7,375 nt of DNA from Deltaproteobacteria bacterium RBG_13_61_14 (GTDB lineage Bacteria; RBG-13-61-14): assembly GCA_001797815.1 (NCBI GenBank), contig MGQK01000082.1, positions 13,058 to 20,432 of the forward strand, given 5' to 3'. Under the pieces are notes generated by a model, which saw nothing but the letters and a program-made list of their open reading frames with translations, did no database searches and had not been told where the DNA came from. How positions within the stretch are numbered: the stretch's first letter is position 1; each line of letters starts with the position of its first letter. A program made the translations under genes and the position numbers. Below, in pieces: positions 2,382 through 6,392 of the stretch.

Positions 2382-5336
2382 TTATTTCAATCCGTAGGCT
2401 TTAAGAAATTTTTCCAGGTTCCAGTCCACGGCCAGCTCCATCAGGCGGCCTTGCTTATCGGCGAAGATCAGCTTGCGGTGCTCAAGTCCGTGATAGAAGA
2501 GGTCGCGGGTGATGGCGACATCGTCCCGGCAGTATCGCTCCACCAGGTCCATCCGGCCCTCTTTCACCCAGCGGAGCGACTGGAGCCCGTCCGCGGTCTT
2601 GCGCCTGCCCAGCGTCTTTTCGGCCAGGTGGCCCAGGCTGAGGCGGTAATTCAAGCGGCGAAAGACGTCCACCAGCATGTCGAAAGTCGGGAGCTTGCGG
2701 AGGTCAAAGGCGGTGTAAGCGCGGAGCACGAGGTAATCGAAGCTCAGCAGGTTGAAACCCACTACCAGGTCGGCCTGGCGAAGCTTGGTCACCAGCGCCC
2801 CCGCCTCTTTCTCGAAGAACGAGTGCATCTCCTGGTCCACGCTGTCCCAGACCACGCCCACGGCCAGGCCCATCAGTTCGGTGTTGTTCCAGCCGCCCAC
2901 CTCCTCGGCCCCCCGCAAGGTCTCGAGATCAAACACCATGATCCGCGGACCCTGGGTCTCTTCTTTCGCCACCGGCAATGCCTCGATCCGGAGCGGCGGC
3001 TCTTCCTCGATCGGACCCGCCGGCGCCACCAGCTCCGGCGCTAACCCCAACAGCATCTTGAGCACCGCGACTGCCGCTTGTTTATCCAGGGGCACGTTGC
3101 CGCTTCCGCACTTGCTCGAATGCACGCAGCCCGGGCAGCCGTCCTCGCACTCGCAGGTCTCCACCACCTCCAGGGTCTTCCGCAACAGCTCTTCGATCAC
3201 CTCGAAGCAGCGCTCCGCCAGCCCGATGCCGCCCGGATAACCGTCGTAAATGAAGATCGCGCTTTTCTTCACCTGCTCGTGGAACGGGGTGGAGATGCCG
3301 CCCACGTCGTCGCGGTCGCAGAGCGCGAACAGCGGGAAAAGCCCGATGGCCGCGTGCTCGACCGCGTGGATGCCGCCCATGAAGTCGCGGCCCAGCCGCT
3401 TGATGGCATGGGGCACAAAGTCCTCGAGCTCGATCCACAGGCCCACGGTTTCAAAAATGAATGGCGGCAAATCCAGCTCGTGCACCGAGAGCCGCTCCTG
3501 GCCGGAGATGCGGCGCTTCTCGTAGCCCTGGATCCATTCCGTGACCTTGAGCTCGCCCAGCCGGACCACGAAGGTTTTGACCGGCTTGCTTGCCCGGACT
3601 TTCAGGATCTCGGTTTCTTTCTCGGACCGGGGCCGGGTGTAGTAGTTGACCGTGACCGGCCGGGCAAAGACGTTCTTGCGGCCCAGGTCCATGCGCATCA
3701 CCTGGTATTGCTGAGCGCGGTGCAAATAGATCGCGCCCTGGTGGCCCTCGGTAAAGGCGCGCTTGCCGTCGAGTGAGCCGATCACCCGCGGCTTCTTGCC
3801 CTCGGGCAAGGGCTTCATCGGCTCCTCAAAGATGGTCCAGGCCTCGCCGATCCCGCGCAGGCTCACCTCCCGCTGCGGATAGCGCCGCCGGCTGTGCCAG
3901 GTCGCCTCGTCCACCGACTTGAGCAGCCGGTTCTCCTGCAGGAGCTCGCGCAGGGCCTCGGCTGAGCTGGCTTGTAAAAAGTGAGGGTCGTCCGCGGACA
4001 GGGGCAGCTCGGCCGCGGCGCAGACCAGGTGCTCTTTCAAAATGGGAAGGTTCTTCGGGTCCACCACCGCGGCTTCGTAGGAGCTTTGGAAAAAAGCTTC
4101 CGGGTGCTTCATGAAATACTGGTCGAGCGCGTCGGGCTGGGCGAGCAGCACGATCAGCGATTCCCGGTCCTGCCGGCCCACCCGGCCGCCGCGCTGCCAG
4201 GTGGTGGTGATGGTGCCGGGGTAGCCGCAGAGCAGGCACACGTCCAGTCCGCCGATGTCAATGCCCATTTCCAGGGCCGAGGTGCTGACCACGCCCTTGA
4301 GCTCGCCGGTAAAGAGCTTCTGCTCGATCTCCCGCCGCTCCTCGGGCAGGTAGCCGGCCCGGTAGGCGCTGATGGCGCGGCGCAGGTCCGGCCGCGATTG
4401 GGTCACCCAGGTGTAGATCAGCTCGGTCACCTTGCGCGCCTTGGTGAAGCAGATGGTCTTGAAGTCCTGGTCCACGGCCAGCCGGAGCAGACGCGCGGCC
4501 GCGGTGCTGGTGCTGAGCTGCATGGGGTTGACGAACAGGAAGTGGCGGCCGGCGGCCGGAGCGCCGCTCCGGTCCTTCACGGTGAAGGGCCGGCCGGCCA
4601 GACGCTCGGCCAGTTCGCCCGGGTTCTGGATGGTGGCGGAGCAGGCGATGATTTGCGGCCGGCTGCCATACAGTTCAGCAATGCGGAAGAGCCGGCGCAG
4701 CACCTGGACGATGTGCGAGCCGAACACGCCCTTGTAGGTGTGGAGTTCGTCGAGCACCAGGAAGCGGAGCGAGCGGAAGAAGGCTTCCCAGTTGGCGTGG
4801 TAGGGCAGGATGGCGGCGTGGACCATATCCGGGTTGGAGAGCACCACGGCCGGCGGGTTGAGGGTGATCTTCTTGCGGCGGTGCGGGGGCGTGTCCCCGT
4901 CGTAGATTTCGGCTCTGATGGGGTCAGGTCTTGACATTTGACATTCAGCCGCCTCGACCAAAGCGCGGAAGGCTTTGATTTGGTCCTGCTCCAGGGCCTT
5001 GATCGGGAAGAGGTAGAGGGCATGGGCCGAAGGATCGTCGAGCCGGCGCTGGATCACGGGCAGGTTGTAGCAAAGCGTCTTGCCCGAAGCCGTAGGCGTG
5101 ACCACCACCACGTTCTCGCCGGCGAGCGCGGCGGTGACGGCCTCGGCCTGGTGGGTGTAGAGCCGGTCAATGCCTTGAGAAGCGAGCGCTTGCTGAAGGA
5201 TGGGCGATAGGGTAGGGGGCCACTCGGCCCATTGGGGTTTTCGCTCGGGGATTTCCTGGTGATGGACGACCTGGCCTTTGAAGTCGGGATCGGCTTTGAT
5301 GGCGGCGATGTAGTCGCGGAGGTTCACTAGGGCCAT
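2382..5336 (-). CDS. DEAD/DEAH helicase with DUF1998 Cys cluster fused to a C-terminal DEDD exonuclease (MrfA-MrfB-like fusion)
   Basis: 984-residue cytoplasmic helicase-nuclease, probably acting in DNA repair. Seen: a YTHQ Q-type motif (60-63); Walker A PTASGKT (81-87); DEAH-type motif II DELH (196-199); motif III SAT (233-235); motif V around STSALEMGID (351-360); motif VI QRGGRVGR (381-388). A DUF1998/MZB-like region follows, with clustered cysteines at 728, 730, 734, 737 and 743, a likely metal site. From about 797 there is an RNase-H-like exonuclease with D803-x-E805, D867 (GFN...FD), Y935 and D939 (YCRDD). Known: B. subtilis MrfA (YprA) is a helicase with this Cys-containing domain, and its partner MrfB (YprB) is a separate DEDD exonuclease; here both lie on one chain. 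ATG 5336 is chosen because family-like sequence begins there. The frame stays open 83 codons further upstream, but that part overlaps hicB and looks non-coding. No strong SD is seen. Residues 131-139 look inserted. Confidence 0.92.
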   Translation of the reverse strand: MALVNLRDYIAAIKADPDFKGQVVHHQEIPERKPQWAEWPPTLSPILQQALASQGIDRLYTHQAEAVTAALAGENVVVVTPTASGKTLCYNLPVIQRRLDDPSAHALYLFPIKALEQDQIKAFRALVEAAECQMSRPDPIRAEIYDGDTPPHRRKKITLNPPAVVLSNPDMVHAAILPYHANWEAFFRSLRFLVLDELHTYKGVFGSHIVQVLRRLFRIAELYGSRPQIIACSATIQNPGELAERLAGRPFTVKDRSGAPAAGRHFLFVNPMQLSTSTAAARLLRLAVDQDFKTICFTKARKVTELIYTWVTQSRPDLRRAISAYRAGYLPEERREIEQKLFTGELKGVVSTSALEMGIDIGGLDVCLLCGYPGTITTTWQRGGRVGRQDRESLIVLLAQPDALDQYFMKHPEAFFQSSYEAAVVDPKNLPILKEHLVCAAAELPLSADDPHFLQASSAEALRELLQENRLLKSVDEATWHSRRRYPQREVSLRGIGEAWTIFEEPMKPLPEGKKPRVIGSLDGKRAFTEGHQGAIYLHRAQQYQVMRMDLGRKNVFARPVTVNYYTRPRSEKETEILKVRASKPVKTFVVRLGELKVTEWIQGYEKRRISGQERLSVHELDLPPFIFETVGLWIELEDFVPHAIKRLGRDFMGGIHAVEHAAIGLFPLFALCDRDDVGGISTPFHEQVKKSAIFIYDGYPGGIGLAERCFEVIEELLRKTLEVVETCECEDGCPGCVHSSKCGSGNVPLDKQAAVAVLKMLLGLAPELVAPAGPIEEEPPLRIEALPVAKEETQGPRIMVFDLETLRGAEEVGGWNNTELMGLAVGVVWDSVDQEMHSFFEKEAGALVTKLRQADLVVGFNLLSFDYLVLRAYTAFDLRKLPTFDMLVDVFRRLNYRLSLGHLAEKTLGRRKTADGLQSLRWVKEGRMDLVERYCRDDVAITRDLFYHGLEHRKLIFADKQGRLMELAVDWNLEKFLKAYGLK
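4920..4946 (-). repeat. Repeat-like in-frame insertion within the helicase gene
   Basis: On the minus strand this stretch contains a tandem ATGTCAA ATGTCAA followed by GACCTGACCCC. It encodes nine residues, ECQMSRPDP (131-139), between helicase motifs Ia and Ib, just before the conserved IYDGDTP segment. It is 27 bp, a multiple of three, so the frame is kept. From memory, strings of the type TGTCAAGACCTGACCCC recur in intergenic repeats of several environmental bacteria, often near REP-associated (Y1-type) transposases. That link is recalled, not tested here, and no transposase gene lies in the window. Confidence 0.45.
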
Positions 5337-5371
5337 TATAACCGGGAGTGAAGAATTTTCCAGCGAAGTGC

Positions 5372-5419
5372 GGGTGGGGGCACCCACGCCCCTAAAGTCC
5401 GCGACCGAAGCGCGGTCGC
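5372..5419. repeat. Two small hairpins between hicB and the helicase gene (REP-like)
   Basis: The first pair is GGGTG (5372-5376) with CACCC (5381-5385). The second is GCGACCG (5401-5407) with CGGTCGC (5413-5419), a perfect 7-bp stem with a 5-base loop. They fill the 101-bp gap between the hicB stop and the helicase start. They could act as a weak transcription barrier after hicB or be remnants of dispersed palindromic repeats. There is no T-run, so an intrinsic terminator is not supported. Confidence 0.55.
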
Positions 5420-5437
5420 CTCTGTAACACGAGCCGG

Positions 5438-5653
5438 CTAAGGTAAAGTCACTTCTTGATATTGCGCGTAAGCTTCGGGCGGGTGGGGCGGGGTGCCATC
5501 TGCTTTCAGGCCTTGGAGGTGAAAGACAATCGCGGCCCGAATGTTCTTCTCCACTTCTTTTCGAGTCTTGCCCGTGGCAACGCATCCCGGCAGATCCGGA
5601 ACGTAAGCGGAATAATTCCGGGGACCTTTTTCCACCACAAACAGGTATTTCAT
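5438..5653 (-). CDS. hicB: HicB-family antitoxin
   Basis: 71-residue antitoxin of the HicB family, which in intact modules binds and blocks the mRNA interferase HicA and often represses the operon. Seen: an N-terminal strand and the family core, with a YSAYVPDLPGCVATG segment (14-28) followed by a TRKEVEKNIRAAI helix (30-42), giving the partial RNase-H-like fold. The start ATG 5653 follows a purine-rich SD (GGGAGGAT) and overlaps the hicA stop as ATGA, the usual toxin-antitoxin coupling. The protein ends soon after the core and shows no added C-terminal ribbon-helix-helix or HTH domain, so its ability to bind DNA is doubtful. The upstream hicA is truncated, so this may be an orphan antitoxin, possibly kept because it neutralises HicA elsewhere or merely not yet lost. 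It is probably transcribed from the promoter-like repeat at 5815-5842. Confidence 0.88.
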   Translation of the reverse strand: MKYLFVVEKGPRNYSAYVPDLPGCVATGKTRKEVEKNIRAAIVFHLQGLKADGTPPHPPEAYAQYQEVTLP

Positions 5654-5787
5654 TTTAAATCCTCCCTCGAGAGGCCGGCCTGTTTCAGAATACTATTCAA
5701 GGTGCCGGGCATCAAGTCATCTCCCGGATGGCCGGCGATGGTAACCCGGCCCGGCTTGGAGGAATGCTTATACTGACGGTGGCTTCC
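5650..5787 (-). pseudogene. hicA: N-terminally truncated HicA toxin remnant
   Basis: 45 codons read as the C-terminal two thirds of HicA, beginning GSHRQYKHSSKPGRVTIAGH and ending NSILKQAGLSREDLK. This contains the family's GSH motif, whose histidine is the proposed catalytic residue of this small double-stranded-RNA-binding-fold ribonuclease. The usual first ~20 residues (first helix and strand, before GSH) are absent. Upstream, the same frame runs only through about seven unrelated codons derived from a GGTGTCCCC-type string and then meets TAA. I see no start codon that would restore a full protein, nor the missing N-terminus in the next ~170 bases. The stop overlaps the hicB start. It is most likely an inactive remnant created by a deletion or repeat insertion between promoter and toxin core. 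A short product from an internal start cannot be excluded. Confidence 0.82.
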
Positions 5788-5808
5788 CCGGGGAAATTCG
5801 GGGACACC
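5784..5808. repeat. Palindromic scar at the hicA breakpoint
   Basis: It contains the perfect 12-bp palindrome TTCCCCGGGGAA (5784-5795), then ATTCGGGGACACC up to the promoter-like repeat. CGGGGA occurs twice in tandem orientation. The string lies exactly where hicA homology stops and where the upstream promoter repeat begins. I recall GGGGACACCTTACTAA-type strings as a recurrent intergenic repeat in environmental genomes; this is a memory, not a search result. Confidence 0.5.
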
Positions 5809-5957: not shown

Positions 5958-6211
5958 TCAAAGGGCATAGATCTCTTTTCGATGGCCGACGGCATGGATC
6001 ACCATCACATCTTTTTCTATTGCGTAGATAACCCGCCAATCCCCGACTCTGATCTTATAAGTGCCGCTCAATTCCCCGGCTAAAGGTTCCGGGACCAGAT
6101 GGTCGAAATGCCGGGAGACCAGCTTATTTTTTTGAGGACGCGCCGTTGGATGAAGGAATCCAGTTTTTCGAGGTCCGCCAGGGCATCCTCGGTCCATTCG
6201 ACTCTAGCCAA
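5958..6211 (-). pseudogene. RelE/ParE-superfamily toxin with an apparent -1-base frameshift
   Basis: Two frames together give one ~84-residue toxin. The first frame starts at TTG 6211 and reads LARVEWTEDALADLEKLDSF then IQRRVLKKISW. The rest lies in the other frame: SRHFDHLVPEPLAGELSGTY then KIRVGDWRVIYAIE, with a C-terminal VIHAVGHRKEIY. This is the normal RelE/ParE order, including the GDWRVIY strand and the final H-R-x-x-Y element of this mRNA-interferase or gyrase-inhibitor fold. The junction is near 6117-6121: one extra base after the TGG codon would give KKISWLSRHF, matching the family pattern. A run of seven A (minus strand) lies just upstream, so slippage or sequencing error is also possible. 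The start overlaps the antitoxin stop by 8 bp, typical of TA operons. As written it is a broken gene; the later frame alone, from an ATG near 6197, would carry an unrelated N-terminus. Confidence 0.8.
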
Positions 6212-6392
6212 GTCTTTTCACGACCTCCTGATGAGAAGTCATTTTCGAACTTTTCTTCAGTATGGATTCCAGTTTCTTTCTAAAGGCAGGTTTCAAGGCC
6301 AGACCCGCATCCGGGTCGCCGAGGATTTCCACCACCTTGTGCTCGATGAACTGCTCCAACTCATCCACAGTCATCTCTTTAATTTTAGCCAT
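6204..6392 (-). CDS. Antitoxin of the RelE/ParE-type module
   Basis: 62-residue acidic/basic helical protein. Seen: an N-terminal MTVDELEQFI helix, then VVEILGDPDAGLALKP, a Lys-rich segment (FRKKLESILKKSSK) and a C-terminal SHQEVVKRLG. The GDPD-x-GL-x-L-(K/R)P pattern is one I associate with small antitoxins that precede RelE/ParE toxins; no name beyond that is justified. The start ATG 6392 has a clear SD, GGAGG at 6403-6399, and a promoter about 30 bases upstream. The stop TAG overlaps the toxin TTG start, so the toxin would be translated by coupling. There is no obvious ribbon-helix-helix or AbrB-type motif, so whether it binds the upstream inverted repeat is unknown. The antitoxin frame is intact although the toxin is frameshifted. 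Confidence 0.8.
   Translation of the reverse strand: MAKIKEMTVDELEQFIEHKVVEILGDPDAGLALKPAFRKKLESILKKSSKMTSHQEVVKRLG

Follow-up and report, generated by a model that had tools for sequence, protein, structure and literature searches.

A YprA/MrfA-family helicase joined on one chain to a predicted DEDDy exonuclease that differs from MrfB

The gene at positions 2382-5336 on the minus strand of the 7,375-nucleotide stretch analysed here (the window) raises the question of whether the two partners of the MrfA-MrfB (YprA-YprB) system of Bacillus subtilis have been joined into one protein. MrfA is a 3'-5' helicase with a repair role, according to a 2025 preprint (PMC12458937), and MrfB is a 3'-5' exonuclease that acts with MrfA on mitomycin damage (PMC11194089; PMC12458937). 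The window protein likewise combines a helicase of this family, including its zinc domain, with a DEDD exonuclease, but on one chain instead of in two genes.

The chain and its helicase half

Translation of the minus strand gave a single open reading frame of 984 residues, which starts at an ATG at 5336 and includes the stop codon within 2382-5336. This start is a choice, because the frame stays open further upstream; a start near it is backed by relatives, whose homology begins close to there. The sequence-only reading had placed helicase motifs and a complete exonuclease set on one 984-residue chain, and this was confirmed by the translation, by Pfam, NCBIfam and PDB matches and by conservation; every residue number it gave (five cysteines within 728-743, D803, E805, D867, Y935 and D939) proved right. 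We assign the chain, from its sequence, as a MrfA/YprA-family helicase joined to a DEDDy 3'-5' exonuclease other than MrfB.

The helicase takes up residues ~1-765 of the 984. In a PDB sequence search, the solved MrfA chain 6znp matched residues 18-740 with an E value of 1.5e-159. TIGR03817 (NCBIfam) scored 718.6 bits, under its curated cut-off of 874.1, and the window helicase is accordingly assigned to the wider family, outside that hypothetical equivalog. The RecA1 (DEAD) domain (residues 61-238; 4623-5156, minus strand; PF00270, 99.4 bits) contains the Walker A SGK at residues 84-86 with K86, DELH at 196-199 and SAT at 233-235, and the RecA2 (Helicase_C) domain (residues 284-388; 4173-4487, minus strand; PF00271, 49.4 bits) ends in QRGGRVGR (381-388). 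These are followed by a Hrq1-type winged-helix domain (residues 425-496; 3849-4064, minus strand; PF22982, 48.7 bits, cut-off 27) and by the MrfA zinc-binding domain (MZB/DUF1998; residues 659-738; 3123-3362, minus strand), where the expected match of the helicase half to PF09369 was found at 87.9 bits, above the cut-off of 24.2. The five-Cys cluster already pointed out (C728, C730, C734, C737 and C743; 3108-3155, minus strand) lies within or beside the MZB match, and each cysteine was invariant in 36/36 fused relatives. The same 36 relatives showed no change at S84, G85, K86, D196, E197, H199, S233, T235, Q381, R382, R385 and R388. The SF2 core, the MZB domain with its Cys cluster and the full-length similarity to MrfA together identify the protein as a member of the YprA/MrfA family, and at E 1e-80 it is the single YprA helicase of the window genome.

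Helicase and exonuclease are connected by a linker (residues ~764-796; 2949-3047, minus strand), seen as a gap of 79 nt between the two profile matches and as a region of low pLDDT (about 40 for residues 785-794 in the AlphaFold2 model of the C-terminal domain). A full-length AlphaFold2 model built from three sequences (pLDDT 53.9, pTM 0.44) was too poor to judge the domain geometry or a canopy OB fold/connector.

YprA helicases with C-terminal nucleases are also components of Druantia, ARMADA and TALON, and by this analogy the chain could be an antiviral effector; antiphage systems do contain helicases from further YprA branches that end in a nuclease (PMC12458937). However, the same preprint puts the MrfB-linked YprA helicases in a DNA-repair branch, and the best PADLOC matches of the window protein were mainly to the helicase core common to such proteins, as with BrxH (139.6 bits, residues 43-393). 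The neighbouring genes, which encode a thioredoxin-like protein, an ABC transporter ATPase, a membrane protein, toxin-antitoxin proteins and an APS kinase, suggested neither a defence island nor a repair operon. An antiviral role is considered unlikely.

The exonuclease half and its family

The C-terminal domain (residues ~797-984; 2385-2948, minus strand) was delimited by an AlphaFold2 model, fold matches and a family profile, and the conservation of its residues was scored over 66 homologues, of which 40 were fused and 26 stood alone. In the Exo I motif D803-L-E805 (2922-2930, minus strand), each of the two acidic residues was kept in 39/40 fused and 26/26 stand-alone homologues, and the Exo II aspartate D867 in GFNxxxFD (2736-2738, minus strand) was kept in all 66, as was D939 (40/40 and 26/26 in both cases). 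Y935 of the Exo III motif Y935-C-R-D-D939 (YX3D; 2520-2534, minus strand) was Tyr in 37/40 fused and 26/26 stand-alone homologues, and 63/66 domains of the family carried YCxxD. Such conservation is far beyond chance, and the DEDDy signature proposed earlier from Tyr935 held in these 63 of 66 domains. The exceptions were an Arg in a decayed fusion copy (L195) and a His in the fused homologues L110 (G099) and L112 (G365), which share a family code and in which DEDDy has naturally turned into DEDDh within the clade.

The exonuclease domain model, from six sequences, was of good quality (pLDDT 91.4, pTM 0.88), and Y935 and D939 (model residues 151 and 155) fell in one long predicted helix (145-169). 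The MrfB study describes a Tyr in a long helix as the DEDDy arrangement, although it also states that MrfB has the longer helix (PMC11194089). Among the fold matches listed (Foldseek was also run), the best solved chains, aligned over their exonuclease domains, were T7 polymerase (Z 15.0) and family B polymerases of archaea (Z 14-15), with some 17-19% of the aligned residues identical. The modelled domain thus resembles polymerase proofreading exonuclease domains. A PDB sequence search with the exonuclease profile returned insignificant matches only, with T7 polymerase at E about 0.4 and viral glycoprotein noise. The top PHROG was phrog_403, 'DNA polymerase exonuclease subunit' (E 1.5e-12), and distant family members with the same YCxxDV motif were found on three viral contigs. 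The predicted fold and DEDDy active site are shared with family B/T7 polymerase proofreading domains and phrog_403, but in the window protein no polymerase is attached. Taken together, the D-x-E, Asp and Y-x3-D set and the DnaQ-like fold predict a C-terminal domain with DEDDy 3'-5' exonuclease activity.

The label of a single-chain MrfA-MrfB enzyme given by the sequence-only reading could mean that ancestral mrfA and mrfB genes were joined and that the nuclease His later became Tyr. In the preprint, some YprA helicases are described as 'fused to' MrfB/YprB homologues (PMC12458937), and a distant relationship of the two nucleases was found: the match to RNase_H_2 (PF13482), the Pfam family of MrfB, was weak, and profile-profile comparison of the fused family with MrfB by hhalign gave E 1.2e-9, indicating remote homology. 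The RNase_H_2 profile scored 23.4 bits with the exonuclease domain alone and 19 bits with the whole fusion protein, against a cut-off of 22, so that the family match anticipated for this half barely passed the cut-off with the domain alone and fell short of it in the whole protein, whereas genuine MrfB genes adjoining helicases in other genomes scored 117-137 bits. Neither the window domain nor the family profile matched the MrfB structure 8UN9 at E 10, whereas one genuine adjacent MrfB, which carries TPRs, matched it at 8.4e-33. The 50 fold matches listed for the exonuclease model do not include 8UN9, which counts in neither direction. No TPR match was found in the fusion protein with Pfam, and the chain ends about 45 residues past D939.

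The motif and the phylogeny pointed in the same direction. MrfB is DEDDh (PMC11194089), as the earlier reading had noted, and every MrfB-type ORF whose motif could be read, 33 in number, had HNxxD, the DEDDh signature; a further five had no readable motif. By hhalign, MrfB grouped with other RNase_H_2 proteins at E 3.1e-25, far closer than with the fused family, and a HMMER cross-check gave the same order. In the exonuclease tree, a quick tree drawn with midpoint rooting, the fused, stand-alone and phage relatives stood apart from MrfB/RNase_H_2, and the very long branch between the two groups measured 3.95 changes per column (SH-aLRT 100). The His in L110 and L112 would favour a His ancestor of the fused nuclease, but it is a late change, because both sit within the Tyr-bearing clade. 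In the helicase tree, too, the fused proteins lay in a different part from the helicases that have MrfB as a neighbour. A true MrfA-MrfB fusion is largely refuted by the exonuclease tree and is regarded as very improbable. The MrfA/YprA helicase named in the original label stood, with its match to 6znp, and the MrfB part did not: by the refuting condition set in the earlier reading, a C-terminal domain that matches another exonuclease family, it fails on the marginal RNase_H_2 score, the 8UN9 search, the separate clade and the polymerase folds. Annotation of the C-terminus as MrfB was likewise ruled out by the DEDDh motif survey, hhalign, the tree and the 8UN9 search. There is no separate adjacent mrfB gene in the window, where the nuclease lies on the helicase chain, and the window genome gave no PF13482 match at E 0.001.

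Distribution and origin of the fusion

A sample of 386 genomes, roughly at family depth and with 3 from the window's own phylum, was surveyed for the YprA helicase at E 1e-80 and for the exonuclease family profile at E 1e-20. The helicase was found in 129 genomes and the exonuclease in 61; both were present in 40, and in 38 of these they formed one open frame, across 33 family codes. In the other two, the nuclease ran off the contig end (G228), or a decayed fusion copy was accompanied by a separate YprA helicase (G363). A scan of genome contigs gave one relative, L013, from a Proteobacteria MAG. The fusion is not an assembly artefact, because it recurs in 38/386 genomes; it is a genuine join, and these sequence matches show it to be widespread among prokaryotes.

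In 21 genomes the nuclease occurred by itself, and a YprA helicase was absent from all of them at E 1e-80, so the nuclease also has a role of its own. Some stand-alone nucleases are left-overs of the fusion: in G226, a catalytically intact exonuclease sits on a 311-aa frame that starts in the last piece of a lost helicase (L181:3129-4064), and in G355, which has the same genus code, the fusion is intact. Other stand-alone copies are basal in the midpoint-rooted family tree, where the direction of change is not proven.

In the helicase tree, 37 fused and 3 unfused rows formed a clade with an SH-aLRT of 100; one of the unfused rows was cut by its contig end, and two were genuine. These two YprA helicases (L221:3084-5360 and L226:3192-5489), which lack the exonuclease and are nearest to the fused clade or nested in it, may represent the state before the fusion or a later loss. 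Before pruning, the fused character took 4 changes on the helicase tree; without L195 (decayed), L004 (cut by its contig end) and two long unfused rows, it took 2. In this reduced set, when all 37 fused helicases were constrained to one clade, the likelihood was above that of the free tree, and the constraint was not rejected (p-AU 0.863). All sampled helicases with an adjacent MrfB fell outside the fused clade, so that one fusion is the simplest reading and the pairing with MrfB is a separate event. These trees fit a fusion that arose once. Compared with MrfA-MrfB, the fused proteins thus have their own helicase clade as well as a DEDDy nuclease of another family without TPRs.

Two further loci were observed in the survey. 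In L195:3498-6332 (G363), both active sites of the fusion have decayed, with GSGRG at Walker A, C and S in place of D803 and E805, and R in place of Y935, in an otherwise open frame of 944 aa, which possibly encodes a structural or regulatory paralogue. On a contig from a viral collection (L246:1880-5310), the gene for a 786-aa MrfA-like helicase is immediately preceded by a DEDDh MrfB-like gene (HNRQD), so that the usual MrfA/MrfB order is reversed.

Proposed function and surroundings of the gene

The reading we favour, at a probability of about 65%, is that the chain is a self-contained helicase-nuclease, most likely of DNA repair, in which digestion is coupled to unwinding, both on one strand. 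The helicase half would, as MrfA does, translocate 3' to 5' along one strand, so the 3' end of that strand would trail behind the motor. The two-metal DEDDy domain, tethered by a linker about 33 residues long, could then trim this trailing 3' end, and a stretch beside a nick or lesion would be removed and then resynthesised. By analogy, the fusion would be functionally parallel to MrfA plus MrfB, with a different, proofreading-like nuclease. The chain appears to be the window genome's only enzyme of this type, because the genome has a single YprA helicase and no RNase_H_2 match. It is also reasonable to suppose that a single chain would fix the stoichiometry of unwinding and digestion. Repair is the role we infer; the open-access literature searched yielded neither biochemical nor genetic work on a member of the fused family.

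On the origin of this enzyme, we lean, a little less firmly, towards at least two independent gains of a 3'-5' exonuclease by YprA repair helicases: one, through a gene next door, would have brought the DEDDh MrfB, and another, through a single ancient fusion event, a DEDDy nuclease resembling polymerase proofreading domains. With members in dozens of families, the fused clade would then be a separate, uncharacterised repair enzyme and a prokaryotic analogue of WRN. WRN is a eukaryotic RecQ helicase with an exonuclease domain. The likeness lies in an SF2 3'-5' helicase and a DEDDy 3'-5' exonuclease on one chain, but WRN is of the RecQ family and its exonuclease is N-terminal and RNase D-like; this exonuclease belongs to the DnaQ superfamily (PMC11194089). 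Another one-chain helicase-exonuclease, Staphylococcus aureus DinG (SaDinG), is needed for DNA crosslink repair (PMC12345164); unlike the window protein, it combines a DinG-type helicase of 5'-3' polarity with an N-terminal DEDDh exonuclease. That the same helicase has been combined with 3'-5' exonucleases of two distantly related types suggests that what selection favours is the coupling of 3' digestion to a helicase, and the single chain makes the coupling of helicase and nuclease easy to test.

A degradosome-like RNA-processing helicase-nuclease could also use a DEDDy domain, since RNases, RNase D and NrnC for example, are found among the DEDDy enzymes (PMC11194089), but this is hardly probable, as MZB and Hrq1-type winged-helix domains occur in DNA helicases, the nearest folds listed are DNA polymerase proofreading domains, and the phage relatives of the nuclease match a family named polymerase exonuclease subunit.

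The fusion as such is not new, because the 2025 preprint mentions YprA helicases 'fused to' MrfB homologues (PMC12458937). These share the architecture of a repair-branch helicase with an exonuclease on the chain, and they are possibly the same proteins as the fused family described here; that text calls the nuclease MrfB/YprB, whereas in our comparisons it tests as a different family. A description of the fused nuclease as a DEDDy protein of a different family was not found in the open-access literature, including the accessible part of that preprint, and this assignment appears to be unreported. Two things under one label, MrfAB and the fused helicase-DEDDy nuclease, can now be separated. 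If the fusions are annotated as MrfAB, a function in mitomycin repair is assigned to a protein whose nuclease belongs to another family.

Several small elements were observed next to the fusion gene. A hicB-like antitoxin gene (5438-5653) has directly upstream of it the 3' remnant of a hicA-like toxin gene without a start (5654-5795, minus strand), recognised by eye from the translation, and the two make up a broken toxin-antitoxin pair. Further along, a ParE-type toxin gene (5958-6392, minus strand) lies beside a 62-aa ORF without a family match, which is probably its antitoxin. Between hicB and the helicase gene is a palindromic REP-like repeat (5335-5440; GACCGCGCTTCGGTCGCGGAC...GGGTGCCCCCACCC), which is partially matched at 23 other places in the genome.
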